A stretch of 56,456 nucleotides of DNA from a virus, in IMG/VR virus record IMGVR_UViG_3300048839_001000, positions 1-56,456 of that record; one strand, 5' to 3'. Of the stretch, positions 6,768-56,456 are shown in pieces (the first letter of the stretch is position 1; each line of letters begins with the position of its first letter). The position numbers and the translations under genes are program-made. The notes below the pieces were generated by a model. The model was not told the origin of the DNA, searched no databases, and was given only the letters and a program-made list of their open reading frames with translations.

Positions 6768-7211
6768 CTATGTGGTTTCATCCTCCATTCCAAGCTCACG
6801 TTGCATCTTCTCCAGCTCGCGTCGCATCTGCTCGACGGCGGAGAGTTTCTCCTTTAGTACACGTTTTTTCAACCTGCGTTCGCGTAGCTCTCTGCCGTGC
6901 TCATTTGGTTGACGACTTTCGCCGGCGCGATTCTCTCCTCGTCGTTCCCACCGTAGATTCTTTGCAGAGCAGTCACTCGGATCTCCGTTCATGTGGCGAG
7001 CTTCGTGACCAACTGGCTTTGGTCCGACGAAAGCCTCCAACACAAGTCGAGCCACGGTGGTCGCGTGCCACCTACCTTTGTCATTGCGCATGTTCACGAC
7101 GCGGTACCCAGTTTCCAGCGAGTTCACCTTCACCGATTTGCCGTGGTGAAACACTGCGCCGCTTTCATCCACCTCGTAACCATCGTGTTCTTTAATCGCT
7201 ACTCTTGTCAC
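6768..7211 (-). CDS. HNH homing endonuclease, NUMOD4/HNH_3 type, 147 aa
   Basis: The N-terminal part (GYEVDESGAVFHHG, then GYRVVNMRND and VARLVLEAFVGPKP) is a NUMOD4-like module. The HNH core follows as HEARHMNGDPSDCSAKNLRW around residues 70-90, with the expected His, Asn and N-L-x-W pattern. A basic coiled-coil tail follows. The start is a GTG at 7211 that overlaps the polymerase TGA (GTGA), with GAGGAGG just upstream; the longer frame from 7244 lacks such a site. It is a free-standing endonuclease directly after DNA polymerase, a classic location for homing genes. The polymerase itself is uninterrupted. Confidence 0.88.
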   Translation of the reverse strand: MTRVAIKEHDGYEVDESGAVFHHGKSVKVNSLETGYRVVNMRNDKGRWHATTVARLVLEAFVGPKPVGHEARHMNGDPSDCSAKNLRWERRGENRAGESRQPNEHGRELRERRLKKRVLKEKLSAVEQMRRELEKMQRELGMEDETT

Positions 7212-9055
7212 ACTGCCTCCTCGTACTTCTTCTTGGTTGACCATGGTTGACCTTCGTCACACGCACTCACTTCAACTCGGATCGGTACGCGAAGTTCCAC
7301 GTGTGGTGACTCCAAGACTGGACGCACTGCTCGAATGAAATCTGCCACACCATCGCTTGGAATCTCGAGCAGAAGTTCATCGTGCACATTGGCGAGAAGT
7401 CGCGCGTTGAACTCCTTGAGCACTGGAGGAATGCTGGCGAGCCAATCCTTCAGCACGTCAGCCGCTGCACCTTGGATGACGTAATTGCGTGCCTTGTGTG
7501 CTAACTCCATTGGTAGATAGTAGTATCTCCTGTATACATTGCGCACGAAACCCTTCGCCCTGATGGTCTCTTCCACGCGTCGCGCGAATTGTCGGATCTC
7601 AGGCAGCACTCGATGCATGTAGTTGTACACGCCGGAGGCTACCACCGAGGCGTTTCGCTCCGTGACATCTTGATCGAAGTTAAAGCGTCGAAGCGCGGTG
7701 AGAATCTTCTCGTCGCTTTCTCGTATCGCTTGTCGAATGAAACTCACTAATGCGCCTTCGAGTTTCATTCGACCCATTCCATAAATGAAACCGAAGTTGA
7801 GTGTCTTCGCGGGCTTCCTTGGTATTCCAAGCATGTCAGCCATCGACTGGTGGTAGTCAGTATTCGGATCTTCATTGTACCTCTTAATGATACCGGGCGA
7901 GTTGGTGTAATGTGCGAAGAGACGAAATTCGATCTGACTGGCGTCGATGGAGATCAATCGATGTCCTGATCTCGGGTAGACCTGCGCCTTCGCACGCATG
8001 TCGAGATTCTGAAAGTTCGGATCTTCACATGCAAGGCGACCTGTCTTGGTGCCGTACTGTTTGAAGTTGGGATGTAAGGTGTCATCTGGCGCGAGTCTCT
8101 TCAACCAACCTTCACCGAACGAAGCATAGGAGTAACTCAACTCCTTCACGTCAGCTGCTAAGTCGCCTACTGGCAATCCATATGAACGAAGTGTTTCTGC
8201 ATCCCACGATGGGTTACCGGTCTTCGTCCACTCCTTCGGTTGCATGGACAACTTGTCTCGAAGGATGCGAGTCATCTCTTTGTTTGACCCGGTGTCGAGA
8301 TGTTCACCCGCCAGTTCATCGAGTTGGTCTTGCTTCGTCAAAAACTCCTCGAGCGTTTTGGTAGCGAATTGAAGCAACTGTTTGCGCGGTACATTGACAC
8401 CGTGTAATTCCGAGTCGAGGAGAGTACGTGTCGCCTTGCGTTCGATCTCAAATAGTTGCATGCATTCCGGTGGAAGTCTCTGGAGAAGTTTCTCCTTCAA
8501 CTCCATGGTAGCATTCAAGTCATGGCAGCAGTAGGTGCCGAGGATGTCAATGGGCACCTTGCCGTAGTCCTTTGTCTTTGCTGCTTCGCAATACGCGTTA
8601 ACAGCATCGGAGTCTTTACGTGCGCTTATGTCACAGTAGTCTTTTGACAACGCCGCCAATGATGCTTGGAAGCGAAGTGAGTCCACCATGCGCGCGAGGA
8701 CCATCGTGTCAAGCAGATCACCGAGCAGATAGATGCCGTCCTGATAGGCGAATCTACAGTCAAACTTGATGTTGTGCCCCACCCACGTGCGTGGGCGCGA
8801 CGCAAGATCTTTCAACCATCGCATCGTCTGCTCGTAGTCGAGGTTCTTAGCGTCTGGCGAGCGGTGCCTAATTGGCAGGTACCACGCCTCTCTACTCTTC
8901 GCCATCAAACCGTAGCCGGCGACTCGGTGCCCATTGAATGGATGAAACGCCGGTTCTTCATCGTTGAACGACGTGGTCTCCACGTCGATCCCGAGTTCAT
9001 CCTCGGAGGACAGGTCGGGCAACTGCGCGGTTGAAGTCAGTACATTGATCTTCAT
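7208..9055 (-). CDS. DNA polymerase I family (family A) with 3'-5' exonuclease, 615 aa
   Basis: This is the replicative polymerase. The exonuclease motifs are intact: GIDVETTSF (Asp24, Glu26), GHNIKFDCRFA near residue 96 and YCCHD near 175. The polymerase motifs are also intact: motif A SIDASQIEFR near 367, motif B RKPAKTLNFGFIYG near 416 and motif C VHDE near 556. Motif B carries Phe at the position equivalent to Phe762 of E. coli Pol I, not Tyr. No 5'-3' exonuclease domain is present. The start overlaps the end of the kinase gene as ATGA, and the HNH gene follows with a GTGA overlap. Confidence 0.97.
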   Translation of the reverse strand: MKINVLTSTAQLPDLSSEDELGIDVETTSFNDEEPAFHPFNGHRVAGYGLMAKSREAWYLPIRHRSPDAKNLDYEQTMRWLKDLASRPRTWVGHNIKFDCRFAYQDGIYLLGDLLDTMVLARMVDSLRFQASLAALSKDYCDISARKDSDAVNAYCEAAKTKDYGKVPIDILGTYCCHDLNATMELKEKLLQRLPPECMQLFEIERKATRTLLDSELHGVNVPRKQLLQFATKTLEEFLTKQDQLDELAGEHLDTGSNKEMTRILRDKLSMQPKEWTKTGNPSWDAETLRSYGLPVGDLAADVKELSYSYASFGEGWLKRLAPDDTLHPNFKQYGTKTGRLACEDPNFQNLDMRAKAQVYPRSGHRLISIDASQIEFRLFAHYTNSPGIIKRYNEDPNTDYHQSMADMLGIPRKPAKTLNFGFIYGMGRMKLEGALVSFIRQAIRESDEKILTALRRFNFDQDVTERNASVVASGVYNYMHRVLPEIRQFARRVEETIRAKGFVRNVYRRYYYLPMELAHKARNYVIQGAAADVLKDWLASIPPVLKEFNARLLANVHDELLLEIPSDGVADFIRAVRPVLESPHVELRVPIRVEVSACDEGQPWSTKKKYEEAV

Positions 9056-9576
9056 TCTGCCACCCGTCTTTCATACATTGACATGATCGAATCAATTTCA
9101 AATACCCCGTCTTGCGCTGTCACCACCATCACCGGTGATCCTGTGATCACGCAGTTCTTTCGTAACAAATACTCGTCGTACATCTTGTAGACATCACGAA
9201 GATCTTTGTGGTCCAGCAATGGATCGCCACGCTGTTTCAATCTGTTCAAACACACGTCGTACTCTGGCCTAACGTAGACAGTCAAAGAGCGGGCCGCGTC
9301 CATTCTGTCGGCAACGTCGCCAACGTTCTTCTGCGTCAATTTGACGTTTGGTCCACCGCGCCACAGACGTCCATAGACAAACTCACTCACGATAAATCGA
9401 TCCAACACAGCAAAGCGTTGGCAGCTAACCATGTAGTGGTGACAATAGTCCCACCACGTTGGCAACAACCCGTAACACTCGAAGCGTTTGAGTCGCTCGG
9501 TGTCAAGCAATCTGCGAGCAACGATGCGCGCCAGGGTACTCTTACCAGCACCATCGGCTCCTTCAAAGATGATCAT
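9052..9576 (-). CDS. Deoxynucleoside monophosphate / thymidylate kinase-like protein, 174 aa
   Basis: A P-loop kinase beginning MIIFEGADGAGKST (Walker A at residues 6-14), with LDRFIVSEFVYG matching the DR(Y/F)xxS motif of thymidylate kinases and a downstream YVRPEYDVCLNRLKQRGDP lid-like region. Such phage enzymes phosphorylate dTMP and, in T4 gp1, hydroxymethyl-dCMP and dGMP. It overlaps both neighbours by ATGA and lies directly after the dCMP-hydroxymethylase-like gene. That order makes phosphorylation of a modified dCMP an attractive role, though substrate specificity cannot be read from the sequence. Confidence 0.85.
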   Translation of the reverse strand: MIIFEGADGAGKSTLARIVARRLLDTERLKRFECYGLLPTWWDYCHHYMVSCQRFAVLDRFIVSEFVYGRLWRGGPNVKLTQKNVGDVADRMDAARSLTVYVRPEYDVCLNRLKQRGDPLLDHKDLRDVYKMYDEYLLRKNCVITGSPVMVVTAQDGVFEIDSIMSMYERRVAE

Positions 9577-10670
9577 GTAGTCTCCTCTTTCGCTATCTTA
9601 TCTGATGCGCACATACACGTGAGCGACATGAAATCGTTCACGAACTCAAAGCCTAGTTCCTTTGCGCGTGTTGCCACACGGGGTTCAAAGGTCGACAGCA
9701 AGCATGACCTGAAACTGACACTGACATGCTCCATCGCTCTGATGAAACTCGACCACTGCTTTGCTTTCCACAAGTGGTACGCCATCATCACCATGAACGC
9801 ATCGCACCACCACGTCGTGCCATAGTCGGAGAGCAAACGGAGTTGCTCTTGTCTCATGCGTTGAAACATGTTCGGCGGTTCTTCTCGCATCTCCATGTCA
9901 AACTGCACGATGTCTGCGCAAAGTTGAATTGCACTGTTGCAGTCCACGTCCGGTCTGCCGTTGGTGCATGCCCACATTCTACCTCTCGTCGCAGCCATCA
10001 AGACAGCGTCGAGAATGTCATCATACAGGCCGGTGTAATAGTGGAGTGAATCTACAGTCTCCACCATCTCACCTGTGGCCATTCGCAGTGATCTCGCGAT
10101 GGTGTCGTGTATGACAGTGAACACAACGTGGTCATGCGGAACTCCCCAAACCAAATCGCTGGAGCGCCGAATCACATGTGCGTGAAGTACATTGTCGACT
10201 GCCTTCAACATCATCATGACATTGCACGGATAGTCGAGTCGTCCATCGGTAGCATCCAATGCTGGATTCCATATTGTCATTAGCGCGCGCCTGGAGCCAG
10301 GATCTCGCGTTAGCTCATTGACAACAAAAGCCAATTGATTGTTGGTGTGGAGTCTTTGACCATAATGACCTTCGAATGTCTTGCCGTCGTGGGAGAACTG
10401 CTTCACGTTGGCATTGTAGAATGCCAAGTACTCCGTGCTGTTATGCCCGGCCAGTATCGACACTGTCTCCGCGAGACTAAAACAGTGGTTAATGCCGCGA
10501 CCTGGCACCACTACGAATCGAGCAGAAGTATCCGGCGTAATCACCATCACCGGTCTCTGCTCTACCGATTTGGTGCCTCTGCACTCTCGAAGGCGCCCGA
10601 ACCTATTGACCGATCTCACTTGATTGCCGTAAGAAGCTGGCCAGTGCGGTCCAGTAATGAGAACACCCAT
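9573..10670 (-). CDS. Thymidylate synthase-family enzyme, probable dCMP hydroxymethylase, 365 aa
   Basis: The thymidylate synthase fold is clear: GHYGQRL, DPGSRRALMTIWNP, the nucleophile Cys in YPCNVMMMLK (near residue 147), IRRSSDLVWGVPHDH and DSLHYYTGLY. The position of E. coli ThyA Asn177, which reads the uracil ring, is Asp here (PHDH, near residue 178), as in T4 gp42 (FRNDY). That favours dCMP as substrate and hydroxymethylation, or methylation, of its C5. About 130 extra C-terminal residues are unlike ThyA and unassigned. The start at 10670 (AAGGAGG, TAATG overlap) is preferred to an ATG 22 codons upstream. The dCTPase-like gene precedes it and the kinase gene follows. Confidence 0.85.
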   Translation of the reverse strand: MGVLITGPHWPASYGNQVRSVNRFGRLRECRGTKSVEQRPVMVITPDTSARFVVVPGRGINHCFSLAETVSILAGHNSTEYLAFYNANVKQFSHDGKTFEGHYGQRLHTNNQLAFVVNELTRDPGSRRALMTIWNPALDATDGRLDYPCNVMMMLKAVDNVLHAHVIRRSSDLVWGVPHDHVVFTVIHDTIARSLRMATGEMVETVDSLHYYTGLYDDILDAVLMAATRGRMWACTNGRPDVDCNSAIQLCADIVQFDMEMREEPPNMFQRMRQEQLRLLSDYGTTWWCDAFMVMMAYHLWKAKQWSSFIRAMEHVSVSFRSCLLSTFEPRVATRAKELGFEFVNDFMSLTCMCASDKIAKEETT

Positions 10671-11191
10671 TAGTATCCCTCCTTCTGACGTCTGCTGTTC
10701 TCCGACATCTTGGCGAGGTACAGATGCGCAAAGCACTCGCCATCACCGCCAAGCAACAGCCAGCAGTTCATCAAGAAGCACATAGCGTCCATCACTTCGA
10801 GCCGTGCCTCCCATACCTCGTCGGCTAACATCACCTTACCGTCGTTCTGACGCCATGGTTTCCATGGTGTTGTTTCGAGGAGCTCTGTCATCTCGGCGAT
10901 GGTGGCCAGTACGTTGACACGCATCATCTCGCGCCACAGCGGGTCACCAGAACGTAGCAGCGCGTGCGCGTCGTCGTTTACTTCAACGTTAGGACTGAAA
11001 TTGGCGTTGCGTTCTTCACTGACGGGCTTGCACTCCTTTTGGAAGGCACGTTGCACCTTCACTAAGTTAGCCATCAGTAAATCCGACCTTGGCAGACTAG
11101 GAGAGACAATACGGTGGTGTTTAGTCTCTTCGACCTGTTTGAAGTACGCTTCCATCACCTTTGGCCAAACCTTCTTCCTGTCTTCTGCCAT
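10670..11191 (-). CDS. dUTPase/dCTPase-like all-alpha NTP pyrophosphatase, 173 aa
   Basis: This resembles the dimeric, all-helical dUTPase / T4 dCTPase (MazG-related) family. The metal-binding helices are IAEMTELLETTPWKPW (E-x-x-E type) and EARLEVMDAMCFLMNCWLLL (E-x-x-x-D type), and the C-terminus has the family signature K-x-x-EN-x-x-RQ-x-x-GY (KMSENSRRQKEGY). T4 gp56 is almost the same length (171 aa) and removes dCTP while making dCMP for hydroxymethylation. Adjacency to the dCMP-hydroxymethylase-like gene supports a dCTPase role, but dUTPase cannot be excluded. Confidence 0.85.
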   Translation of the reverse strand: MAEDRKKVWPKVMEAYFKQVEETKHHRIVSPSLPRSDLLMANLVKVQRAFQKECKPVSEERNANFSPNVEVNDDAHALLRSGDPLWREMMRVNVLATIAEMTELLETTPWKPWRQNDGKVMLADEVWEARLEVMDAMCFLMNCWLLLGGDGECFAHLYLAKMSENSRRQKEGY

Positions 11192-16494: not shown

Positions 16495-17118
16495 CTAAGT
16501 TAGCGTCAACATGTAGGCGTATGCCCACGGCGGCGGTATTCGCGTGTCCCACAGTGGAGTATGCTCGCGGCTGTCATGTTCGTGGTGAAGAATCACGTCG
16601 AGACACGGATCAAGCACCAGATATCCAGCTTTGCGAGCCATCGCAATCACGCGATTGTCAATCGCCTGCACACCGAGGAACTCATCTACATTACTTATTG
16701 GCAGTCTATCTCGATACAACCACGCATCAGCGCTACCGAGATTCGTCCACGTCTCCCTGCTCAATGAGATGAACAGGTTGTCCCACGAACCGTCCCACTT
16801 AAGAAGCTTCTCCACCGACTTGTCAAACCACACGTCAGCATTACACAGTCCAACAATACCAGTCGGTGCATGCGAGTTGACGAGAGCCGCCATCGCAGCC
16901 CACGTGGCCCTGACACCGCTACGTCTAAACAACACCTTTGGATTGTCGAGTAGTTCACGGCGCTTTCGTCCAATCCTATCGATGCCCGTCTCCTCGACCA
17001 CGACCATCACGCGTTCAATCTGTTCGCACTCGATGTTCTTCTGCAATGCGATGGCGTACTCCTCTTCACGCTTCTCCGTCTTGGCCGGTGGTAGTCCAAT
17101 CCCAAGCACCTTAATCAT
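16495..17118 (-). CDS. Glycosyltransferase-like protein (GT-A type), 207 aa
   Basis: The N-terminus (MIKVLGIGLPPAK) and IERVMVVVEETG give a Rossmann-like start. GIVGLCNADVWFD near residue 93 is the NAD-x-x-D nucleotide-sugar/metal motif of GT-A enzymes. SRETW and SADAWLYRDRLP follow, then the acceptor-side end with DVILHHEHD. The start at 17118 overlaps the previous stop (ATGA); a longer frame exists but lacks support. It forms a pair with the GT9-like gene directly upstream. Donor and acceptor are unknown. Confidence 0.72.
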   Translation of the reverse strand: MIKVLGIGLPPAKTEKREEEYAIALQKNIECEQIERVMVVVEETGIDRIGRKRRELLDNPKVLFRRSGVRATWAAMAALVNSHAPTGIVGLCNADVWFDKSVEKLLKWDGSWDNLFISLSRETWTNLGSADAWLYRDRLPISNVDEFLGVQAIDNRVIAMARKAGYLVLDPCLDVILHHEHDSREHTPLWDTRIPPPWAYAYMLTLT

Positions 17119-18482
17119 CGTCCCATTCTCCTCTCTGCTTCTTTCAATGCTCTCACTGCATGACCGAAGACCACCTCCGGTTTCATGTCCCACATAGCTT
17201 CACATTGATGATCACACGATGGCCGATACCCATGCTCTGCTTGCCAATTGCATGGACTGCACTCTCCTGGAGACTGTAGTATCTTCACCGTGTCATACCA
17301 ACCGAATACTACCTTGCCATCAGTAGCGGAACAGATTGCAATCGTTGGTACACGCATCACTCCGGCGAGATGAGACATACCACTATCATTGCCAATGACG
17401 AGATTCGTTTTGGTAAACAACGCAACAGTGTGGTCCGCTCCCCATCCCCAATAACGAAGGTATGGCATGTGCTTTGTTCTATCCGGTTCGTTTCCATCAA
17501 CCACATAGACAAAGCATCCGAGCTTCGTGAGCATTCCTGCGAGATCTATCCAGTGGTGCATAGACCACGTACGCTGCGGACTGTTGGAGAATGGAACGAT
17601 CGCAACAATCGGTTTGCCGTTAGTAACTCCTTCAGTCAATTGCCCACGGCTCCACTCTGCGACATCGTTACTTGGCCGCAGTCTAATGTCTCGCACTGGT
17701 TCATCGACGCCAGCCGCCATACACCATAGATGATGTCTGGAGATTGGCGGGTTGTGCTCTTTGGCACAGATGTCATCGATGAGTCCCATTCGTTCGGGAC
17801 AGAGTTTGATGAGCCACTCACCACGAGAGCTCCAATCATCGGTGGACATCACATTCGCCCAACCGAGTTTCGCCCATGGCACTCTGTTTGGCACCGCGCG
17901 TATCCTGACTTGCTTCGACGGATACTTCTGCTGAATCGCATGCACTACTGGTAGACACGCGACCGTGTCACCAATGCCAGTCATGTCGAGTTCTTCTTCA
18001 TTGGTGCGAGCGTAGTGGAGCTGCACGTCAATGACATCCTTCAGTACTTCGGAGTGCCGTATCTGCACTTTGAATTGACGTCCAATATTGTTGCCCGGTC
18101 CCCACCGCGCGCGCGGACACACGGACTGGTCGTAAAGCGCCTTCTCTCTGACATTGCATCCGCAACCAGTCTTCTTCTCATCACGATACACTTTGGTCAG
18201 ACTATTCAGCCGTGGTTCCCCACAATACTCCTTCTTGTTTATTCTTCTGAATAGACGTGTCTCTGTGCCTTGTTCCTTCTCATCACATGTGTGACAGAGA
18301 GCAAGGCGCATCTTCTGCACGGTTTCTGATACTGTCTTCCCCATGCGCGCACGAAGAAAACTGACGACACCGAGATCTTTCGTCCCCTCGATCTCTGCGA
18401 GTGTCTTGCACGGTTGACACTCTGATGTCACGTCACCTTTGAACGACGGGTACGGCGAACACTTCGGTGCTACCGGGTCCAT
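17115..18482 (-). CDS. Glycosyltransferase family 9 (heptosyltransferase-like) with Cys-rich N-terminal domain, 455 aa
   Basis: Residues ~1-140 form a cysteine-rich module (ECQPC, CHTCDEKEQG, EYCGEP, TGCGCNVREK, SVCPRARW), a probable zinc domain I have no firm name for. From ~165 the GT9 pattern appears: GIGDTVACLPVVHAIQQKYP, VAIVPFSNSPQRTW, WIDLAGMLTKLG and LVIGNDSGMSHLAGVMRVPT, the last being the donor-binding C-terminal Rossmann domain of heptosyltransferase-like enzymes. It follows the tail-tip gene and overlaps the next glycosyltransferase by ATGA. A zinc domain fused to GT9 is unusual and may bring the enzyme to its acceptor. Confidence 0.82.
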   Translation of the reverse strand: MDPVAPKCSPYPSFKGDVTSECQPCKTLAEIEGTKDLGVVSFLRARMGKTVSETVQKMRLALCHTCDEKEQGTETRLFRRINKKEYCGEPRLNSLTKVYRDEKKTGCGCNVREKALYDQSVCPRARWGPGNNIGRQFKVQIRHSEVLKDVIDVQLHYARTNEEELDMTGIGDTVACLPVVHAIQQKYPSKQVRIRAVPNRVPWAKLGWANVMSTDDWSSRGEWLIKLCPERMGLIDDICAKEHNPPISRHHLWCMAAGVDEPVRDIRLRPSNDVAEWSRGQLTEGVTNGKPIVAIVPFSNSPQRTWSMHHWIDLAGMLTKLGCFVYVVDGNEPDRTKHMPYLRYWGWGADHTVALFTKTNLVIGNDSGMSHLAGVMRVPTIAICSATDGKVVFGWYDTVKILQSPGECSPCNWQAEHGYRPSCDHQCEAMWDMKPEVVFGHAVRALKEAERRMGR

Positions 18483-45305: not shown

Positions 45306-45944
45306 TTAGACAATCCAATTTCCATCTTCTTGCATACGTTTGATTTTAGCTTCAACTCCCACAGTATGATTGTAATGATAACAAACAGCTTCGTTCAACT
45401 TAAGTGGGTAGGCTCCAACTGGAAATTGATCTGACGGAAACATTCTCAATCTATCTTTGGTATGATTCCATCGCCACCTTTTTTCTATATACTCATCGTC
45501 CGATCTCAATGGTCCATTGGGGGTGAGAAATCTAATAGCGAAGTTTGTCGGTCGAGCGGCGACAATCCCCATACATACTGTCTTATCGACGTTCTGCTGC
45601 GCGCATATGTCCCACGCACCATCCGGTAAATACCTCCTGATGTCGTCAAATACAACGACGTCAGGATCAATGTAGAATACGTCTGAGATTTTCAATCTGT
45701 CGACGATGGTTTCTAATTTCCAACGCACTACTTCGCCCCAGCTACCCTGCGTGTACAGCTGCTCTCCTTTTGGGAGATAACAAGGTCGGACTACAACTCC
45801 ACATTTGAGATCGTATTCTCTGCGTGTTTCCTCATCCGGGACAACGACGACAATGTCCGTCGATGGTACATACCTTAATAGATGTGCGACGGCATTCGCC
45901 ACCATCTGCCTGTAAGCCATCGTTCCCGTCAGTAAAAACTTCAT
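45306..45944 (-). CDS. Glycosyltransferase-like protein with DPD motif, 212 aa
   Basis: Nucleotide-diphospho-sugar transferase pattern: FLLTGTMAYRQMVANAVAHL at the start, DIVVVVPDEETRREY, GEVVRWKLETIVDRL, then VFYIDPDVVVFDDIRRYL near residue 95, the D-x-D motif that binds metal and the donor phosphate. AICAQQ-like and SDQFPVGAYPLKLNEAVCYH segments fit the acceptor side. The start at 45944 follows AGGAGGAAGG; a longer frame is spurious. Donor and acceptor are unknown. Confidence 0.75.
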   Translation of the reverse strand: MKFLLTGTMAYRQMVANAVAHLLRYVPSTDIVVVVPDEETRREYDLKCGVVVRPCYLPKGEQLYTQGSWGEVVRWKLETIVDRLKISDVFYIDPDVVVFDDIRRYLPDGAWDICAQQNVDKTVCMGIVAARPTNFAIRFLTPNGPLRSDDEYIEKRWRWNHTKDRLRMFPSDQFPVGAYPLKLNEAVCYHYNHTVGVEAKIKRMQEDGNWIV

Positions 45945-45957
45945 TCCTTCCTCCTCG

Positions 45958-46584
45958 TTAAGGTTTAATCCGAAGCAATTCGTTGTGCGTGAGTCTTCGT
46001 CCATCGTGCATCCCGCTGTGTCTCTCAATCCACGTCGCCCTACTATTGCAGATGTTTGATCCATGCGACGTCTGAAAGCACGCGTACGGTGTTGGAACGA
46101 CGCCTTCGAGGACACCATCGCAAATGCACTGGCACGTCATTCTATCAACAACGTCTTGCGGTGTGTCGAGTAAAATTCGCGCGACTGACGGTGTTACAAC
46201 GTAAGCGTGCACTCCTTTTGCGAACTGCAACGTAGACAGTCCGCCTGGGGTGTAGTTCGAGAATGTCGCATGTATAACACCGAAGAAGAATATTGTCGTC
46301 GGTGATAGCGGCATTACTTCGTGCCTTCTAATGAAGAAGGCATCGTCCTCGTATATAGCCGTGGTTTCATTGCGCTTTGCGATCTCTCGCCACACATTCA
46401 AGTGTGCATCTGTAACGATAGTCTCTCGTTCATGCTCCGTTTCAGTAGTGAAATCGGCACCGAGAATAACCTCAGGCATCGGCATTCCAACGTTGCACAT
46501 GGTGCCAAGTGAAACTCGGAGTATCTTTGCACGCGCAGGCGCCGACAATATCACATGACGCTTAATGTATGTCGTCTGGTCCAC
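45958..46584 (-). CDS. Glycosyltransferase family 25-like protein, 208 aa
   Basis: KRHVILSAPARAKILRVSLG and AEITKR-type helices lead to TTAIYEDDAFFIRRHEVMPL near residue 78, the EDDA motif of GT25 (LPS biosynthesis) enzymes. GVHAYVVTPSVARILL matches the family's conserved AY...A..LL segment. It starts with a GTG at 46584 after GAGGA. It lies beside the DPD-type glycosyltransferase, so the two may act one after another on the same acceptor. Confidence 0.76.
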   Translation of the reverse strand: MDQTTYIKRHVILSAPARAKILRVSLGTMCNVGMPMPEVILGADFTTETEHERETIVTDAHLNVWREIAKRNETTAIYEDDAFFIRRHEVMPLSPTTIFFFGVIHATFSNYTPGGLSTLQFAKGVHAYVVTPSVARILLDTPQDVVDRMTCQCICDGVLEGVVPTPYACFQTSHGSNICNSRATWIERHSGMHDGRRLTHNELLRIKP

Positions 46585-46607
46585 GGTGTCCTCAATTCAT
46601 CAAGTAA

Positions 46608-46667
46608 GCTGCGCCGGCGGCTAATCGGGTGGAGAAGGCATGGCGTCCCTCTCCCCGCCGGCGCAGC
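46608..46667 (-). repeat. Perfect 13-bp inverted repeat between glycosyltransferase and membrane-protein genes
   Basis: GCTGCGCCGGCGG (46608-46620) and CCGCCGGCGCAGC (46655-46667) enclose 34 bases that can form an inner GGAGA/TCTCC stem. The structure fills the space between two genes and starts a few bases past the stop codon of the membrane protein. Confidence 0.7.
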
Positions 46668-46674
46668 AATCATT

Positions 46675-47079
46675 CTACTTCGGCGGAGGCAGCAACCGTC
46701 CCTCGGGATCTTGCTCTTTGTACACCGGCAACTTCACCTCGGTCACGCGCTTCACTTCTGCTGTCTTGCCATCCACGGCGATGTTCACTGTGCTCGGTGG
46801 CACTTTGTTCTCCACAGTGATCGTCGGTGGTGGTACGTTAACTGCAGCTGGCTGCACGTTCACCGTTGCCGGCGGCACGGTCACTTCCACCCGCGGCGCT
46901 TCCGCCTGCTTCACGTTCACCACGGGCGGTGCCACATTGACCACCGACGGCTGCACGTCGACTCGCAGCTGCATGGTTAAACGTCCAGCGTAGAATGCAA
47001 GCGCAGCGGTGACCATTACTATCACCCACAGCCCAAACACCGCGCCCATCATTTGTTTGTACTCATTGTCCATCTTCAT
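46675..47079 (-). CDS. Membrane-anchored protein with Val-Asn-Val/Pro repeats, 134 aa
   Basis: After a short start, one transmembrane helix (AVFGLWVIVMVTAALAFYAG, residues ~11-30) is followed by a periplasmic or external region made of short repeats (VDVQPSVVNVAPPVVNV, VEVTVPPATVNVQPAAVNV, PPTITVENKVPPSTVNIAVD) and a charged end. The VNV-PP pattern predicts an extended beta/proline-rich rod able to span the periplasm, as some unimolecular spanins do. AAGGAG supports the ATG at 47079. A 42-residue membrane gene lies just upstream. Confidence 0.72.
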   Translation of the reverse strand: MKMDNEYKQMMGAVFGLWVIVMVTAALAFYAGRLTMQLRVDVQPSVVNVAPPVVNVKQAEAPRVEVTVPPATVNVQPAAVNVPPPTITVENKVPPSTVNIAVDGKTAEVKRVTEVKLPVYKEQDPEGRLLPPPK

Positions 47080-47095
47080 CTCCGCTCCTTGTTCC

Positions 47096-47224
47096 TTAAA
47101 CCCGTGTGGATACGCACACAACCACGCACACCAACGCAACGACAATGCCTAACGCAATCACCAACCACGGCATTGCCCACACGAAAACGGCCTTGAAGTT
47201 GTTCCACGTCCAATCACCCCGCAT
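47096..47224 (-). CDS. Small single-pass membrane protein, 42 aa
   Basis: A short gene found by reading the gap. AAAGGAG lies nine bases before the ATG at 47224. After MRGDWTWNNFKAVFVW comes a long hydrophobic helix (LVIALGIVVALVCVVVC) and a short end (STRV). The TAA lies next to the ribosome binding site of the next membrane protein. Size and topology allow a holin or holin-like role beside the spanin-like gene, but this is speculative. Confidence 0.62.
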   Translation of the reverse strand: MRGDWTWNNFKAVFVWAMPWLVIALGIVVALVCVVVCVSTRV

Positions 47225-47251
47225 CGTGCCATTCTCCTTTCTTATCTGCTA

Positions 47252-47554
47252 TCACCTATTTACATCGGTAATAGCTTCACGTGCTATTACCACAGCCTTA
47301 GTTGCCGCGAAATTCGTCGCGCCGTACTTAGGATCGAGGGCAGCGATTTTCTCAAGAGCTTCGAGCAGTTTCGGCGCAGCAGCCAACAAGTTCGCATTAA
47401 CCGCCGCCACTCTGCAATCCTCGTCTGTCATTCCTATTGCGAAGCTGATGTGTACGACGCTAATCCCCTTGCAAATTTCAAGTCGACGAATGCTTGGGAA
47501 TGACTGTACCCAAGTCCAACGACTTTGCTTAGCGCTCTCGATGTCACTCTCCAT
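47252..47554 (-). CDS. Hypothetical protein with APKLLEAL motif, 100 aa
   Basis: The C-terminal half carries AAVNANLLAAAPKLLEALEK, a motif common to many short phage proteins of unknown function; the N-terminal half is beta-like (RRLEICKGISVVHISFAIG). AAAGGAG supports the ATG. Soluble; no catalytic residues are evident. Confidence 0.7.
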   Translation of the reverse strand: MESDIESAKQSRWTWVQSFPSIRRLEICKGISVVHISFAIGMTDEDCRVAAVNANLLAAAPKLLEALEKIAALDPKYGATNFAATKAVVIAREAITDVNR

Positions 47555-47588
47555 CTCCTGTCTCCTTTCTTATCTACGCGCACACCTT

Positions 47589-48599
47589 CTATCGCATCAC
47601 GACAGCCCACTCTCGCGTTGGGTATCCTTTGTCGCTCGCGATTTCTCTGTATCCTGTCTTGAGAAGATGTGTCAACACAACGCTCTCCACGTTGCGTTCA
47701 ACATCGTCGAACATGACCGGCACATCTGACTTGAACATGTCAAGATACTTGATGAGATTCAATCTGCTTTCAGATGCCGGTGGACCATCGACGATAAGGA
47801 GGTCATAGTCCTTCGGTAGTCGCGCCTTTAATGCTTCTGGGAAGTACCACCCATCAGGACCGAGAGGCACGTGAATGTACTTCGACGGATATTTGTTCGT
47901 CCAACGCATATCGTGCTCCACCGAGTAGAGCTGATAGTCTTTGCAAAGAGCGGCTGTGGTACCATTCCCACTGCCAAGCTCAAGGATCGTTTTACCTGCT
48001 GGAATATTCGCACGAATCCACTCAATCGCCGATGGTCGCATTTGCATTCCAGGTGGCGTCTTTCTAACTGCATCAGTTGATTTATTAAGTTGCGGGATTG
48101 AGAGTTTAACGGTATCCTTCCCAAGGAATGTGCAGAGGCTTTTCCACTTCTCTTCGTCACTCACGTTCTTGTCGCAAATGTCGATGAGTAGCATTCGATC
48201 ATAGGCGAACGTCTTTCCGAACCACTTGATAAAGCTTTGGTGCGCATCGTACATTACTCGTAGTTTCTTCTCGTCATACAATAAGCACCCATAACTCGCC
48301 ATAATGGCGAGTCTATCCCTATCGGGAAGTCCGGCGTGGTTCACCACGTCCATGTGTATCCGCATCGATTCGAGCCAACTCTCAACCTCACGCGTGGTAC
48401 AAATATAAAGCGCATTTGGCCAGCGTGCGTTAATCGACAGCGTGTAGAGATAAGTCGGCACGTCAACTATCGCGTCATATCTACTGTATGTCGTCGGGTC
48501 AACGATGTAGTGGCCCGTGTTGATCCCGAGGTTCTTCAGCATCCACGCTAATGTGCTGATGCCCGTTCTTCCAAGACCAACTCCAAAGACTTTTGCCAT
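47589..48599 (-). CDS. Sulfotransferase-like domain fused to a SAM-dependent methyltransferase, 336 aa
   Basis: Residues 1-~175 resemble sulfotransferases: FGVGLGRTGISTLAWMLKNL (PAPS 5'-phosphosulfate loop), a DVPTYLYTL segment and the 3'-phosphate-like NALYICTTREVESWLESM. Residues ~195-336 are a class I methyltransferase: AGKTILELGSGNGTTAALCK (motif I, near 205), YSVEHD (acidic residue binding SAM ribose) and DLLIVDGPPASESR. The fusion is seamless in one frame. In context with four glycosyltransferases it could sulfate and methylate a glycan, a plausible but untested route. AAGGA lies ten bases before the ATG. Confidence 0.78.
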   Translation of the reverse strand: MAKVFGVGLGRTGISTLAWMLKNLGINTGHYIVDPTTYSRYDAIVDVPTYLYTLSINARWPNALYICTTREVESWLESMRIHMDVVNHAGLPDRDRLAIMASYGCLLYDEKKLRVMYDAHQSFIKWFGKTFAYDRMLLIDICDKNVSDEEKWKSLCTFLGKDTVKLSIPQLNKSTDAVRKTPPGMQMRPSAIEWIRANIPAGKTILELGSGNGTTAALCKDYQLYSVEHDMRWTNKYPSKYIHVPLGPDGWYFPEALKARLPKDYDLLIVDGPPASESRLNLIKYLDMFKSDVPVMFDDVERNVESVVLTHLLKTGYREIASDKGYPTREWAVVMR

Positions 48600-48633
48600 G
48601 ATGTGTCATCCTTTCAGGTAGCCTTTTACTGTC

Positions 48634-48651
48634 GCAACTCTTCAGAGTTGC
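48634..48651 (-). repeat. Small hairpin spanning a stop codon
   Basis: GCAACTCT and AGAGTTGC are perfect arms around TC. The stop codon of the zinc protein at 48642 lies inside. It may stabilise the message end. Confidence 0.45.
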
Positions 48652-48911
48652 ATCGATTGTTCCGCTCCAGTCAACCGATGATTGGAATTACTTCTTGGAT
48701 AGTTAGGTGTATCCACCCACTTACCATCCTTGAAGTCAAGGTTGCCCTTACGGTAGATGCGGTCTTCCTCGTTTGGAGTTAGCTTTCTCCCACAACAATC
48801 AGTGGTCAGTGTGCCTTCAAATCCACCGCAGACAGCGCAGTAACCAAGCCCACCGTCGCAGAACATGCAGCCTGTTTTCCCGCAAGAGCATTCAAACCAA
48901 ACGTGTTTCAT
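48642..48911 (-). CDS. Small zinc-finger phage protein, 89 aa
   Basis: The N-terminus has CSCGKTGCMFCDG, then YCAVCGGFEGTLTTDCCGRK, a CxxCGGxEGxLxxDCxGR pattern common in short phage proteins of unknown function. IYRKGNLDFKDGKWVDTPNY follows and fits the same family. Two zinc sites are likely. The start is the third of three tandem 14-base SD-ATG units (see the repeat at 48909). Confidence 0.78.
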   Translation of the reverse strand: MKHVWFECSCGKTGCMFCDGGLGYCAVCGGFEGTLTTDCCGRKLTPNEEDRIYRKGNLDFKDGKWVDTPNYPRSNSNHRLTGAEQSMQL

Positions 48912-48950
48912 GTTTGCTCCTTCATGTTTGCTCCTTCATGTTTGCTCCTT
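48909..48950 (-). repeat. Triplicated 14-base start module (SD plus ATG)
   Basis: On the minus strand AAGGAGCAAACATG occurs three times in tandem (48950-48937, 48936-48923, 48922-48909). Each copy has a Shine-Dalgarno site and an ATG. The last ATG begins the zinc protein. The first two ATGs each open a five-codon frame MKEQT that stops with a TGA overlapping the next ATG. The upstream glycosyltransferase also ends in KEQT, so the first copy is its own 3' end. Confidence 0.88.
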
Positions 48951-49526
48951 CAGGTAGTTGTAGTAGCACAGAGGTTCGTTCACGAATGTGAAGTCATCCA
49001 TGTGCCTGTTGTGAATCTGCTGTATGAAGTATCCATCGCCACCGCGCATTGTGTTGTGGTGCTTCACGTAATCTATCCATCGTACGCTTCCGATGGCTTC
49101 TCTCTTCACCGCGAACTGCGCGGTGTCAACAATCAAAGGTTTTAAATTCTCCGGTGATGCTCTCAATCGAAGGTCACCGTTCTTCCACACTTGGTCGACA
49201 ACAAGAGCGCAGCCACTCACGTTGCTCAACCTAGCGAGGAAGTCACGGTGTATGATGTTGTCGTCATCAACTCTATACACCCACCCATCTTTGATGCGCT
49301 CTAACGCAACATCGGTTTGTTTATCCCCCCATGGCTTTCCACGGACAGATCCTGTTTCAACGCGCAGTTTATTGAAGCGCGCCTGCACGTCGAAGAGCAC
49401 TCTGTCAGCATCAAAGATGATCCACCACGTGATGTTATCCGTGGGCATCCGTTGCGCGAGAATGCTACCGTACACCGCATCGAGGTGATACGGCCGTGAG
49501 CATGGGGTTATCAGGTGGTAGTTCAT
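48936..49526 (-). CDS. Glycosyltransferase family 2-like protein, 196 aa
   Basis: HLITPCSRPYHLDAVYGSIL at the start, WWIIFDADRVLFDVQARFNK, then GWVYRVDDDNIIHRDFLARL near residue 84, where DDD is the metal/donor motif of GT2-type enzymes. TAQFAVKREAIGSVRW and HHNTMRGGDGYFIQQI complete a short GT-A domain. It starts at 49526 just after the previous stop; the ribosome binding site is weak (GGGAC). Acceptor unknown. Confidence 0.78.
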   Translation of the reverse strand: MNYHLITPCSRPYHLDAVYGSILAQRMPTDNITWWIIFDADRVLFDVQARFNKLRVETGSVRGKPWGDKQTDVALERIKDGWVYRVDDDNIIHRDFLARLSNVSGCALVVDQVWKNGDLRLRASPENLKPLIVDTAQFAVKREAIGSVRWIDYVKHHNTMRGGDGYFIQQIHNRHMDDFTFVNEPLCYYNYLKEQT

Positions 49527-49527
49527 C

Positions 49528-49827
49528 TCAGCGCTTTGTCCCTACGACTCGCGTGATCCGCTCACCATTTACGACGAGGAACAGTCCACGCCGGTTCGAC
49601 CTCATGAGAGTGAGATTGACCGGATGGTCTTTACGAAGTGCGAGATGATGCGTGCCTCGCATCTCATACACTAACGTCTTGCGACGCCTGATGCTCTCGG
49701 CGCACGCCGCGCGCGTCTGACTCTGGAGCGTCTCCACTCGCGCCTGCTCTACCTCGAGCTGTATCTCTCGGCATCCGGTGCGCGTGCTGATTCTCCTGCC
49801 CCACACATCCTCGTTCGTGTTCATCAT
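49528..49827 (-). CDS. Hypothetical basic protein, 99 aa
   Basis: A small charged protein with a helical middle (REIQLEVEQARVETLQSQTR) and a basic beta-like C-terminus (VNLTLMRSNRRGLFLVVNGE). The ATG overlaps the preceding TGA (AATGATG); the second ATG, at 49824, is better spaced from GAGGAGG. Function unknown. Confidence 0.68.
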   Translation of the reverse strand: MMNTNEDVWGRRISTRTGCREIQLEVEQARVETLQSQTRAACAESIRRRKTLVYEMRGTHHLALRKDHPVNLTLMRSNRRGLFLVVNGERITRVVGTKR

Positions 49828-50018
49828 TCCTCCTCTTTCGTTATCTTTGGATTGATGACAATGCGTAGTGTTACTTTTCCATTGTCATCTCCGTCAAGAG
49901 TTAGCTCGGCATCTTCGAATGCCCGCTTTAAGTCGCTCCACTCGTACAACATTGAATCCGCATCACCGTCTTTAGATGTCGGAGTCACTTCGACGTAGAC
50001 TCTATGTTCGTCGCTCAT
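49824..50018 (-). CDS. Small acidic protein, 64 aa
   Basis: Mostly beta with an acidic middle (YVEVTPTSKDGDADSMLYEW, AFEDAELTLDGDDNGKV). The start at 50018 overlaps the stop of the glycosyltransferase (ATGA); a longer frame would overlap that gene further and is not needed. No family recognised. Confidence 0.65.
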   Translation of the reverse strand: MSDEHRVYVEVTPTSKDGDADSMLYEWSDLKRAFEDAELTLDGDDNGKVTLRIVINPKITKEEE

Positions 50019-50725
50019 GACTTGGCATCTCCCAAGAACCAGCACTTACTGGCGATCATCCTCTGAAGCTTCTGCGATGACGACGTCACCGCGTTGAAGT
50101 GCGTGATGTATCTGTCCTCTGACCTGCAGCACCAATCTTCTTTGACCGGAGCGAACTTTCCATCGGGGAAAAGGTTCGTCGGCAGTCCAAACCACTTCAC
50201 CTTCTCGGTAACGAGCCGCGCGTTGATCAGCTCCTCTTGATTGTGCCATCGATCAAACTCGTCACGCGACGGTTTGAAGAGTCGCCGGCACGCGTCAGTT
50301 GGGAACGCATAGTAGAAGCCATCGCACATGATGGTGAATCCAGGAAACACCGCTTGCTGTGCGATCAGGTCAACCCCGGCGACGTTGAACCACGGCGTCG
50401 GGTCGCGATGGAAGATCACGTCAACATCGCTAAAGAGCACCGGCTCGTCGTGCTGTAGCAGGTGCGTCATCAGCTCCATCTTCGTCCACACGAATGTCTT
50501 CCACTGTCTTGACCCGTACGGTAAAGCTGCTTCGTCCATGGATGCCACACCAGGCACTCTTTTCGCACGACTGTAAGGAGCGTACGGTACCATCGCCGCC
50601 ACTGCGGTGTCATCAGTACAGTACACCGTCAAGTCTTCGGTGTCAATACCCGCCTTCTTCAGACTAAGAAGCCAGTTACGCGCGTACCCGACGTACGCCG
50701 CGTTGATCAAGGTTGCGATGCGCAT
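50015..50725 (-). CDS. Glycosyltransferase (GT77-like nucleotide-diphospho-sugar transferase), 236 aa
   Basis: IATLINAAYVGYARNWLLSL at the start, AGIDTEDLTVYCTDDTAVAA, then FVWTKMELMTHLLQHDEPVL followed by FSDVDVIFHRDPTPW near residue 100. The DVD motif, followed by a short loop and RDP, is the pattern of GT77-like nucleotide-diphospho-sugar transferases. TIMCDGFYYAFPTDACRRLF and the C-terminal WCCRSEDRYITHFNAV fit the rest of the fold. AAGGAGG supports the start. Confidence 0.78.
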   Translation of the reverse strand: MRIATLINAAYVGYARNWLLSLKKAGIDTEDLTVYCTDDTAVAAMVPYAPYSRAKRVPGVASMDEAALPYGSRQWKTFVWTKMELMTHLLQHDEPVLFSDVDVIFHRDPTPWFNVAGVDLIAQQAVFPGFTIMCDGFYYAFPTDACRRLFKPSRDEFDRWHNQEELINARLVTEKVKWFGLPTNLFPDGKFAPVKEDWCCRSEDRYITHFNAVTSSSQKLQRMIASKCWFLGDAKS

Positions 50726-52506: not shown

Positions 52507-52594
52507 CGCGGCGATGATTCGTCGGTATTGCCCCACTGGGCTTCGCTCTCGCCTCGTGACGTTATCACGTCAGCACCAAACCCTCATCGCCGCG
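52507..52594 (-). ncRNA. Candidate structured RNA element, 88 bases
   Basis: An 11-base closing helix (CGCGGCGATGA with TCATCGCCGCG) encloses, in the RNA, a perfect hairpin TGACGT-GATA-ACGTCA and a second, GCCC-AGTG-GGGC, giving a three-way-junction-like shape. It spans the stop codon of the deoxyribosyltransferase-like gene and lies before the 30-aa membrane protein. Its role (leader, processing site or small RNA) is unknown. Confidence 0.45.
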
Positions 52595-53042
52595 GCCTGC
52601 CGAATGGAGGTCCACCTTTGCCCTTGCTCATCTCATGGCGCACACGCGCTGCCATGAGTCCAAACATGAACTCATCGAATGTTTTGCAGTACTTCACGCA
52701 CGGTAAGTATTGGAATGGCATCACCGGTTTGCCAATGAGAATGATCAGTTTGCGCAGTCCAACTGCGAAGCCCATTTCGTAGTGCATGCCACCGAGCGTC
52801 GACGGTGACTCAGAGAACTGCACGAACCAGTCAGCTTCGAGGATCTCCGTGAGACACTTCTTCGCGACGCTACGCGCACTCTCCGCGTCACCTGGCTTCC
52901 AATCGTGTGCACCATCGTCGTGCCACGTCGATGTCACCCTGATTTGGTGCAGACTCAACTTATCAGCGAACTGTTTCACAGCCGCCTTGTCGGTCATCGA
53001 CGATGAGATGTACACCGAGATGTCGGACAGTCTGTTGTTCAT
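52584..53042 (-). CDS. Nucleoside 2-deoxyribosyltransferase-like protein, 152 aa
   Basis: The N-terminus (SVYISSSMTDKAAVKQFADK) and the pattern of a hydrophobic strand, HQIRVTSTWHDDG, CLTEILEADWFVQFSESPST and GGMHYEMGFAVGLRKLIILI match the nucleoside deoxyribosyltransferase family; HYEMG holds the conserved E-x-G. Such proteins salvage or exchange nucleobases, or act in sugar-nucleotide signalling. The TGA lies inside the structured element at 52507, and the ATG overlaps the ligase stop (ATGA). Confidence 0.76.
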   Translation of the reverse strand: MNNRLSDISVYISSSMTDKAAVKQFADKLSLHQIRVTSTWHDDGAHDWKPGDAESARSVAKKCLTEILEADWFVQFSESPSTLGGMHYEMGFAVGLRKLIILIGKPVMPFQYLPCVKYCKTFDEFMFGLMAARVRHEMSKGKGGPPFGRPRR

Positions 53043-54290: not shown

Positions 54291-54749
54291 CTACTCTCTT
54301 GTGTACGCCAAGTGCTTCACGGGACCTTCGCCCATGAGCATCGCGGCGATCAATCTCGATGTCTCTGCCTTACTGTTGGAAGGCACGAACCACTCCGCTG
54401 GAAAGTCACACGCCACCATGCTGTCGCTGAGTGAGCGAATGAACTTCGGCCATGGTCCACACACCGTGAACACGCCGGCGGCACGCTCTGTGCCGAAAGC
54501 GACCGTGGCGCCCGTACGTGAGAGAGCCATCGACCGTAGCACGCTCTCCTGTCCCGGTGTCAAAGCACTGACGCATGAGAGGAGCGATGCAGCGACCTTC
54601 AACTCAAACGTCATGATCGGTCTGTTCGCTGCCCAGTAGATGTAGTCGGGTAGCCCGCGCTGCATGGCGTCATTGTGGAGCTTGAACACCGTGGCTCCAC
54701 GCATGCGGAGATCCTTCGCCACCATCGACCCTAATTCATTCTCTTTCAT
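54291..54749 (-). CDS. VRR-NUC-type nuclease, 152 aa
   Basis: FKLHNDAMQRGLPDYIYWAA near residue 25-40 and MTFELKVAASLLSCVSALTP near 46 give the PD-(D/E)xK core of the VRR-NUC family (Asp in PDY, Glu and Lys in ELK). The family includes phage Holliday-junction-resolvase-like and recombination nucleases. ALTPGQESVLRSMALSRTGA continues the fold. The ATG overlaps the 3' end of the methyltransferase gene; a ribosome binding site is poor. Confidence 0.82.
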   Translation of the reverse strand: MKENELGSMVAKDLRMRGATVFKLHNDAMQRGLPDYIYWAANRPIMTFELKVAASLLSCVSALTPGQESVLRSMALSRTGATVAFGTERAAGVFTVCGPWPKFIRSLSDSMVACDFPAEWFVPSNSKAETSRLIAAMLMGEGPVKHLAYTRE

Positions 54750-55920
54750 CGTCGCGGTCCCAATTGTTTTGTGGTTTGATGAAGCGATTGCTCACGTTCA
54801 CCTTGAACTCTCTGTCACCAATCTCCTCACCAATCATGTCGCCAGGCTGCCCGTTCAACGCTCGAGCCACCCACTTAGCGCACCATTTGCCGCAGTGCGT
54901 GGTGACTCCTTTGCCGAGCCATGCCGGCCCAGTCTTGTGGTCCGGCGCCATCTTCAGGCTCCACTCTTTTGGGTAGCCCATCAATGTCGCAAGCTCCCTG
55001 TACGTCATGCAGCGCGGTTTGGTGGGATGAATCTGCTGACCGAGTGATCCACCAGAGATGACTGGCCACAAACCGTTGCGCCGAACTCGCTCCACCGAAT
55101 GGAAGCCATCGTGCGCCGCGTCCACAGAGCAGGCAATGCATGCATGTGCCGGCCATCCAATCGCTTCGAAATCCTTCAGCGTGTAGCCGGCATCCTGTGC
55201 TCGGTCGATGGCTACGCCGATCTTCTCACCTTCTTCAAGGCGAGCGATCTCGAGAAGCTTGCGCACGCGGACGTGGTGGTCATCCTCAACATCGTGATGG
55301 CTATCACCATGACCGACGTCGTCCCAGGTCTCCTTGGCGTTCTCCAAGTGCTCGATGTGACTCCATCCAGTCTTGCACCGAGTCCACTCAAGCTGTTCCA
55401 CGCCGAACGGCACCCGTGACATCACTAAGAAGTAGCGGCGACGGAGTTGGGTGCCGCCCAGCGCGGCACAACTATGAAGCAGGTGGGTGATGGTGTACTT
55501 CTCACCGGTAATTGCCTCGAGTGATTCGCGCAGACTCACCATGAGCGGACGGCCCTTCGAGAACGCTTGCTGGACTGACTCCATCACGGTGATTATCGGT
55601 TTGCACTTAGCCGCGAACATCGTGAAGTCACGCATGCACTGATTGATCGGCGCGTCGATGCCCCTATTCTTGCCCGTGTTCAATGAAGAGAAGCCACTGC
55701 ACGGTGGATTGCCAGCGACAACGTCCACGCGTTTCGGTGTCCACAATGTTGGGTCAGTCATCTCTGTTTCCCAACCATCGCCTAACACGTGACGATTGCC
55801 TTCGCACGCTGGTACCCCGAAGCCGCCGGTATGCTCTCGCTTACCGACGAGTTCAAAGCCTTCTGAGACAAAGGAGTACGTTAATCCTCCGGCGAAACAT
55901 TGGCAATCCACAAACTTCAT
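54736..55920 (-). CDS. DNA cytosine-C5 methyltransferase, 394 aa
   Basis: C5-methyltransferase motifs are in order: FVDCQCFAGGLTYSFVSEGF (motif I), GNPPCSGFSSLN (motif IV with the catalytic Cys, near residue 80), IITVMESVQQAFSKG (motif VI, ESV rather than ENV), GGTQLRRRYFLVMSR (motif VIII), and HPTKPRCMTYRELATLMGYP (motif IX-X) with GKGVTTHCGKWCAKW. Modification of its own DNA is likely, against restriction. It is odd that this enzyme shares a genome with an enzyme set for modified dCMP, since modified cytosines would not be its substrate. Start at 55920 has GGGAG and overlaps the previous TGA. Confidence 0.88.
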   Translation of the reverse strand: MKFVDCQCFAGGLTYSFVSEGFELVGKREHTGGFGVPACEGNRHVLGDGWETEMTDPTLWTPKRVDVVAGNPPCSGFSSLNTGKNRGIDAPINQCMRDFTMFAAKCKPIITVMESVQQAFSKGRPLMVSLRESLEAITGEKYTITHLLHSCAALGGTQLRRRYFLVMSRVPFGVEQLEWTRCKTGWSHIEHLENAKETWDDVGHGDSHHDVEDDHHVRVRKLLEIARLEEGEKIGVAIDRAQDAGYTLKDFEAIGWPAHACIACSVDAAHDGFHSVERVRRNGLWPVISGGSLGQQIHPTKPRCMTYRELATLMGYPKEWSLKMAPDHKTGPAWLGKGVTTHCGKWCAKWVARALNGQPGDMIGEEIGDREFKVNVSNRFIKPQNNWDRDDERE

Positions 55921-56456
55921 TCTGATTCTCCCATGCACAAAGCGATGAGTGACTTGGCGACCTTCCGAGGATCGTTATGAGTGCGAAGCGACATTCGATT
56001 CGCTTCAATCTTCTCGTCAAGCTCTCCATCGAGGTGCTGCTCGATGACTTCGTTAACCAGCTTAGCGAAGGCTGGCAACGCCTCTTGGAGCTCTGGTCTG
56101 TTGAACAGATTCTCAGTCAGATCGCTAGTCGGCACCATCGCGTCGAACCACGCGACGTTGAACTGTTCCGTAACCTCGGATCGCTGGCATCCGGCATGCA
56201 CCCCATAGGCACCAGAGTCCATTAGTTCGAGAGCCGTGTACTCGAACATCTCCTTCTGGAAGTGTGGCGAGGTTAACGCGGTATACACGGAAACGTCAAG
56301 GTCGTCGATCGAGCCGAACCCGCCGTGGTACCTGGCCGTATGCCCGTCGAGCGTGGCCTCCCATGGATGTGGCTTCAGGATTGGGTTTGACCCGCTTGCC
56401 TCGATGCTCTTACGCGTCTTCTCGTCAAGGTGCATCGTCCCATTGAATCCACGAAC
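55917..56456 (-). CDS. Hypothetical protein, 5' end beyond the window
   Basis: The frame is open to the right edge (180 codons, of which 7 precede the first ATG at 56435, which has no ribosome binding site), so the gene probably starts outside. The visible part has a beta-like first third (GFNGTMHLDEKTRK, DGHTARYHGGFGSIDDLDVS) and a helical C-terminal part (EALPAFAKLVNEVIEQHLDG). I do not recognise it. It precedes the methyltransferase with an ATGA overlap. Confidence 0.7.
   Translation of the reverse strand, partial: VRGFNGTMHLDEKTRKSIEASGSNPILKPHPWEATLDGHTARYHGGFGSIDDLDVSVYTALTSPHFQKEMFEYTALELMDSGAYGVHAGCQRSEVTEQFNVAWFDAMVPTSDLTENLFNRPELQEALPAFAKLVNEVIEQHLDGELDEKIEANRMSLRTHNDPRKVAKSLIALCMGESE

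Follow-up and report, generated by a model that had tools for sequence, protein, structure and literature searches.

A cluster of putative glycosyltransferases and a sulfotransferase-methyltransferase fusion in a phage with a predicted route to 5-hydroxymethylcytosine

Introduction

What does a phage build with a large set of carbohydrate enzymes, and on which molecule? This question is raised by the IMG/VR tailed-phage contig IMGVR_UViG_3300048839_001000, from an uncultured bacterial virus, whose entire 56,456-nucleotide sequence was analyzed here and is called the window. Between 45.3 and 50.7 kb it carries four genes for putative glycosyltransferases (GTs) and one for a sulfotransferase fused to a methyltransferase, and two further putative GT genes lie at 16.5–18.5 kb. 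These six GTs and the fusion probably build a complex sugar decoration; the original prediction, that several such enzymes assemble a decorated glycan, thus stands as a prediction. The likeliest single explanation, to which we give slightly less than an even chance, is glycan hypermodification of DNA, in which a decorated oligosaccharide is placed on 5-hydroxymethylcytosine (5hmC) of the phage genome.

Results

The most distinctive gene of the cluster (47589..48599, minus strand) is a single uninterrupted open reading frame (ORF) of 336 amino acids (aa), in which a sulfotransferase domain (~residues 1–180, PF17784 Sulfotransfer_4) is followed by an S-adenosylmethionine (SAM) methyltransferase domain (~185–336, Methyltransf_24), much as had been claimed. 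The sulfotransferase half matches PF17784 in Pfam at 8.3e-19 (68.7 bits against a cut-off of 22.8), and its assignment is strong. Alignment with bacterial PF17784 sulfotransferases, to which it is 27–29% identical, indicates that both motifs for binding 3'-phosphoadenosine-5'-phosphosulfate (PAPS) are conserved, the 5'-PSB as GLGRTGIST and the 3'-PB as TTREVESWLES. In contrast to these bacterial enzymes, the phage protein is compact, is fused to a methyltransferase and reads IPQLN in place of the C-terminal FPHxN, retaining the Asn and replacing His with Gln; FPHxN is common in the family and is not known to define it. The methyltransferase half is assigned with moderate confidence, matching Methyltransf_24 at 4.6e-4, below the cut-off, and containing the SAM motif LELGSGNGT. 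Limited searches found no other sulfotransferase-methyltransferase fusion elsewhere. Among cellular relatives of the PF17784 domain, one on a planctomycete genome contig (L121) shares a 373-aa frame with a GT2-like domain and thus parallels the phage fusion, and a Methylomagnum plasmid protein (L093:2989-4122) has the domain tandemly duplicated and flanked by transposases.

The original prediction placed four GTs around this fusion. Once their starts were corrected, the ORFs claimed in this region were all present, and the evidence for a GT differs among them. A GT77-like protein of 236 aa (50015..50725, minus strand) is strongly assigned: it matches PF03407 (Nucleotid_trans) at 9.2e-18, over the cut-off, and contains the DVD motif LFSDVDVIF. 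No homologue of it was found in INPHARED phages, plasmids, an IMG/VR 8-mer scan or 246 Planctomycetota genomes. The GT25-like assignment of a 208-aa protein with an EDD motif (45958..46584, minus strand) is moderate (PF01755 at 8.7e-4, below the gathering score), and a search for phage homologues gave none. The two remaining proteins are weakly assigned as GTs by textbook GT-A motifs. One is a GT2-like, GT-A-like protein of 196 aa (48936..49526, minus strand) with a DDD motif in VYRVDDDNI, a C-terminal GDG..YYN pattern and a Fringe match of 0.19; homologue searches gave none. The other is a GT-A-like protein of 212 aa from its likely start (45306..45944, minus strand) with the DPD motif YIDPDVVVF and a PF03407 match of 0.12, for which homologue searches gave nothing convincing. 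This gene had been drawn as 45306-46118; its likeliest start is the ATG at 45944, which is preceded by a GAGGAGGAAGGA ribosome-binding site and lies 13 bases past the GT25 stop. For the DPD and DDD proteins, AlphaFold models built from the single sequences reached a pLDDT of only 34 and 32 and could not be used.

Two additional GTs had been proposed past the tail-tip gene. The first of these (17115..18482, minus strand) is strongly assigned as a 455-aa GT-B enzyme of the GT9/heptosyltransferase type, with PF01075 at 1.9e-13, over the cut-off, TIGR02195 at 1.4e-10, under its cut-off, and structures of lipopolysaccharide (LPS) heptosyltransferases (2gt1, 2h1f) at 0.003; it has a Cys-containing N-terminal extension. 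The second (16495..17118, minus strand, its start moved to 17118 from the earlier 16495-17193) encodes a 207-aa protein with the NAD motif CNADVWF that has no Pfam match. It is moderately assigned as GT-A-like through Planctomycetota relatives (1.6e-8 and 4.5e-7), in which the GT-A-like domain is fused to other GTs, and it has a homologue in cyanophage S-SKS1 (2e-7). In codon statistics the annotated frame scores better than the other five in all seven genes, though only narrowly so for the DPD and GT9-like proteins. Because PF17784 occurs in 0 of 49 other IMG/VR records with a related family A DNA polymerase (PolA), and PF00535 (GT2) in 1 of 49, the cluster appears to be more than chance.

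The position of this pair suits virion or surface glycosylation. In virion glycosylation, capsid, tail or a 1112-aa beta-repeat protein would be O-glycosylated and also sulfated or methylated, a reading that we consider quite unlikely. It is consistent with the pair following the tail-tip gene, with the 45–50 kb cluster adjoining terminase and packaging genes, and with the Ser/Thr-rich composition of the repeat protein. That protein (31688-35026) is rich in Ser, Thr and Gly, has autotransporter-associated-like beta-strand repeats and no PHROG match, and is a candidate fibre and possible glycosylation acceptor. One or two GTs are usual for virion glycosylation, and F1 phage Maravista has two; six GTs of different families exceed this number, and a virion target would leave the hydroxymethylase cassette described below unused. 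Glycosylated capsid and tail-tube proteins are reported for mycobacteriophages (Freeman 2023, as cited in PMC12619734).

The families of these enzymes also bear on host-surface modification, in which they would alter or extend host LPS or capsule, with O-sulfation and O-methylation among the changes, and so block superinfection or change receptors, while the hydroxymethylase served an independent role. We regard this as rather unlikely. Its appeal is that the closest cellular kin are surface-glycan enzymes: the GT9-like protein matches LPS heptosyltransferases, GT25 is an LPS family, and the bacterial PF17784 relatives adjoin GTs, as on a Roseobacter plasmid, or are fused to GT2, as on L121. 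Additionally, cyanophage LPS/capsule clusters, likewise made up of multiple GTs of different families, have been interpreted in this manner (PMC7824862). Those clusters contain NDP-sugar epimerases and dehydratases, whereas Pfam scans of the window proteins detected no epimerase/dehydratase, flippase, polysaccharide polymerase or other NDP-sugar or export enzyme. The window cluster thus stands apart from a surface pathway in having no NDP-sugar enzymes, flippase, polymerase, ligase or membrane anchor, and neither the GTs nor the fusion have predicted membrane segments. The scanned proteins also include no recognized integrase or lysogeny gene, which weakens the case for long-term superinfection exclusion.

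What favors DNA as the target is a predicted hydroxymethylcytosine cassette. The gene at 9573..10736 (minus strand) encodes a predicted dCMP hydroxymethylase of the thymidylate synthase (TS) superfamily (PF00303 at 6e-18) with the catalytic Cys in YPCN. Its best match in the PDB is the CMP 5-hydroxymethylase MilA (5b6d/5jnh, 6e-17). In alignment its GVPHD falls opposite GFRND of T4 and GLPFN of ThyA, placing Asp at E. coli position 177 as in T4 gp42; this residue is Asn in ThyA and in the SPO1-, ViI- and M6-like dUMP enzymes. The MilA match and the Asp at 177 uphold the earlier dCMP hydroxymethylase call. BLAST against phages returned ~30% identity to dUMP hydroxymethylases of SPO1- and ViI-like phages; a dUMP hydroxymethylase was rejected because position 177 is Asp and not Asn. 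Position 147 is Asn, common to phage dUMP hydroxymethylases. In the MetaGPA study, positions 177 (Asp) and 147 separate contigs with modified from those with unmodified cytosine (PMC8670742). Membership in this family suggests that the product would be hydroxymethyl-dCMP rather than methyl-dCMP.

The hydroxymethylase gene overlaps both of its neighbors. One (10670..11191, minus strand) encodes an all-alpha dUTPase/dCTPase-like protein of the MazG superfamily (phrog_18650 dUTPase, 1.6e-14; dimeric dUTPase structures, 0.004), and a PF08761 dUTPase_2 match at 1.1e-4 most likely belongs to this protein. The other (9052..9576, minus strand) encodes a TMP-kinase-like deoxynucleotide kinase (phrog_761, 5.6e-21; TIGR00041, 1.1e-6), a candidate hydroxymethyl-dCMP kinase, and PolA (7208..9055, minus strand; phrog_17, 9e-85) continues the same gene run. 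Among 92 proteins from four further phage contigs of the Asp177 type, each partner family again has two members. Judged from these genes, the phage probably makes 5hmC, and the hydroxymethylcytosine target that had been suggested gains weight. Because 13 of the 17 other TS-bearing contigs in the related-PolA IMG/VR set are Asp177-type (with position 147 mostly Ser or Thr), hydroxymethylation (or methylation) of cytosine, as predicted from this residue, seems frequent in the PolA group. The window proteins gave no Tet_JBP match in Pfam scans, and a route to 5hmC through a TET/JBP dioxygenase was rejected on this basis.

Several observations weigh against a DNA glycan. The hydroxymethylase and the GTs are linked by their co-presence on one contig, and they lie 35 kb apart on the linear map. 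The T4 alpha-GT (PF11440), beta-GT (PF09198) and TAGT (PF20691) families were unmatched in Pfam scans of the window proteins, and membership in the T4-type DNA GTs was rejected accordingly. PF00535 GTs occur in 0 of the 13 other Asp177-type contigs; therefore a dCMP hydroxymethylase alone need not imply glycosylation. In favor of modified DNA, 6-bp palindromes are little avoided in the window (observed/expected 0.92, compared with 0.89 in T4 and 0.66 in lambda); the window ratio is higher than that of 22 of 24 related-PolA contigs lacking a TS (median 0.73). This signal is unspecific: two TS-less contigs exceed the window, the Asp177 contigs taken together show no significant excess (P = 0.096), and Clover, an M6-like phage whose homologue is of the Asn177 type, strongly avoids palindromes (0.47).

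An orphan C5-cytosine DNA methyltransferase (54736..55938, minus strand; PF00145 at 1.5e-17, PADLOC MTase_II at 3.8e-22) would be odd in a phage in which every cytosine is already 5-substituted. It could modify host DNA or act together with partial modification, making it either a contraindication to a DNA glycan or a partner in one. Its motif VI has ESV instead of the usual ENV. Additionally, the GTs form two separate groups in different genomic contexts, as would be expected of a mixed system with some GTs acting on DNA and others, such as the 16.5–18.5 kb pair, on the virion or surface. No evidence ties any single GT to a substrate, and we consider such a division very unlikely. Host-surface and virion glycosylation remain live rivals to the DNA glycan.

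The remainder of the window is that of a tailed phage, with HK97-type head genes, terminase, portal, tape measure and a replication block, nearly all on the minus strand. Some structural proteins match the Pam3 cyanophage Pfam families PF23977, PF23992 and PF23984; we therefore use the term tailed phage rather than siphovirus. No terminal repeat was found on the contig. If the map is circular or permuted, the gene order would run from ligase, nuclease and C5-methyltransferase through the GT cluster to the terminase. The only close relatives that terminase scans of IMG/VR revealed in the lineage were two short contigs (4.7 and 6.9 kb, 71–72% identity), both carrying just terminase and head genes. 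The best terminase matches in cellular-genome contigs were in metagenome-assembled genomes of Pirellulales (45%) and Gemmataceae (37%), a weak hint of a planctomycete host. Scans with exact peptide patterns, which miss distant kin, found no relatives of the sulfotransferase-methyltransferase, hydroxymethylase, GT77-like or GT9-like proteins in IMG/VR, and none of the sulfotransferase-methyltransferase in cellular-genome contigs. Elsewhere in the window, a 975-aa primase-like protein (11193-14120) has a C-terminal region matching phrog_18685, of unknown function, at 1.3e-85. The protein at 52584-53042 resembles nucleoside 2-deoxyribosyltransferases (6.3e-6) and also matches the ThsB TIR-like defence profile (1.2e-4); it could be an enzyme of nucleotide salvage or of signal nucleotides.

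Discussion

Under the DNA-glycan reading, the phage cassette would make hydroxymethyl-dCTP through the dCTP/dUTP-hydrolysing enzyme, dCMP hydroxymethylase and nucleotide kinase encoded beside the DNA polymerase, and 5hmC would be incorporated into phage DNA. During or after replication, cytosolic GTs would draw on host NDP-sugars to assemble an oligosaccharide at the hydroxymethyl group, and the fusion would cap it with sulfate from PAPS and methyl from SAM. The bulky, charged product may shield the DNA from restriction, Type IV and CRISPR nucleases. The enzyme families, the cytosine-type active-site residue, the cassette and the lack of membrane and NDP-sugar genes are supported by sequence; that the glycan sits on DNA, how the steps are ordered and what sulfation and methylation contribute are what we infer. 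The fullest form of this proposal, 5hmC DNA covered by a branched oligosaccharide that is sulfate- and methyl-capped by a previously unseen sulfotransferase-methyltransferase fusion, is by itself unlikely.

In viral 5hmC glycan clusters, 5hmC reportedly arises from a C5-methyltransferase together with a TET-type dioxygenase, and GTs are said to act on it, yielding mono- to trisaccharides. The window resembles them in combining several GTs with a 5hmC route and, like the TET-associated cytosine glycan clusters, in having a C5-cytosine methyltransferase (PF00145) and GTs on one genome. It differs in that no TET/JBP match was found, and 5hmC would come from the dCMP hydroxymethylase. Phage clusters that attach a variety of glycans to 5hmC have been published (Pyle et al. 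2024, Cell Rep 43:114631, as cited in PMC13216743 and PMC12619734). The glucosylation of hydroxymethylcytosine in T4 (gp42, gp56, gp1 and alpha/beta-GT) uses an Asp177 dCMP hydroxymethylase, as predicted for the window, where candidate partners of dUTPase/dCTPase-like and TMP-kinase-like type are encoded beside the polymerase. In place of the alpha-GT, beta-GT and T2/T6 TAGT families, the window has many GTs of other families and the fusion. T-even glucosyl and gentiobiosyl and RB69-type arabinosyl systems have been described, as have phage DNA GTs of cellular origin (PMC13216743). The 5hmC carbamoyltransferase contigs of MetaGPA (PMC8670742) likewise pair an Asp177 TS homologue with a transferase that caps 5hmC, there a carbamoyltransferase; here GTs and a sulfotransferase would take that role.

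The carbohydrate-enzyme cluster is real and is unusual in a phage. To call it a previously undescribed system is too strong: besides the published 5hmC glycan clusters, nucleotide modification in phages based on glycosyltransferases and sulfotransferases is credited by PMC10829341 to Iyer et al. 2013, and viral sulfotransferases have been reported as putative auxiliary genes (PMC8290583). Thus DNA glycan hypermodification is already known in phages, and it is the fusion that our searches, limited as they were, did not meet elsewhere. If the glycan is on DNA, phage hypermodification would extend to sulfated, methylated oligosaccharides in a dCMP-hydroxymethylase, non-TET background, offering new enzymes for 5hmC labelling and giving the DNA a negatively charged armour that may act against restriction, Type IV and CRISPR defences. 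With the virion or the host surface as the target instead, the carbohydrate-enzyme set would be unusually large for a 56-kb phage.

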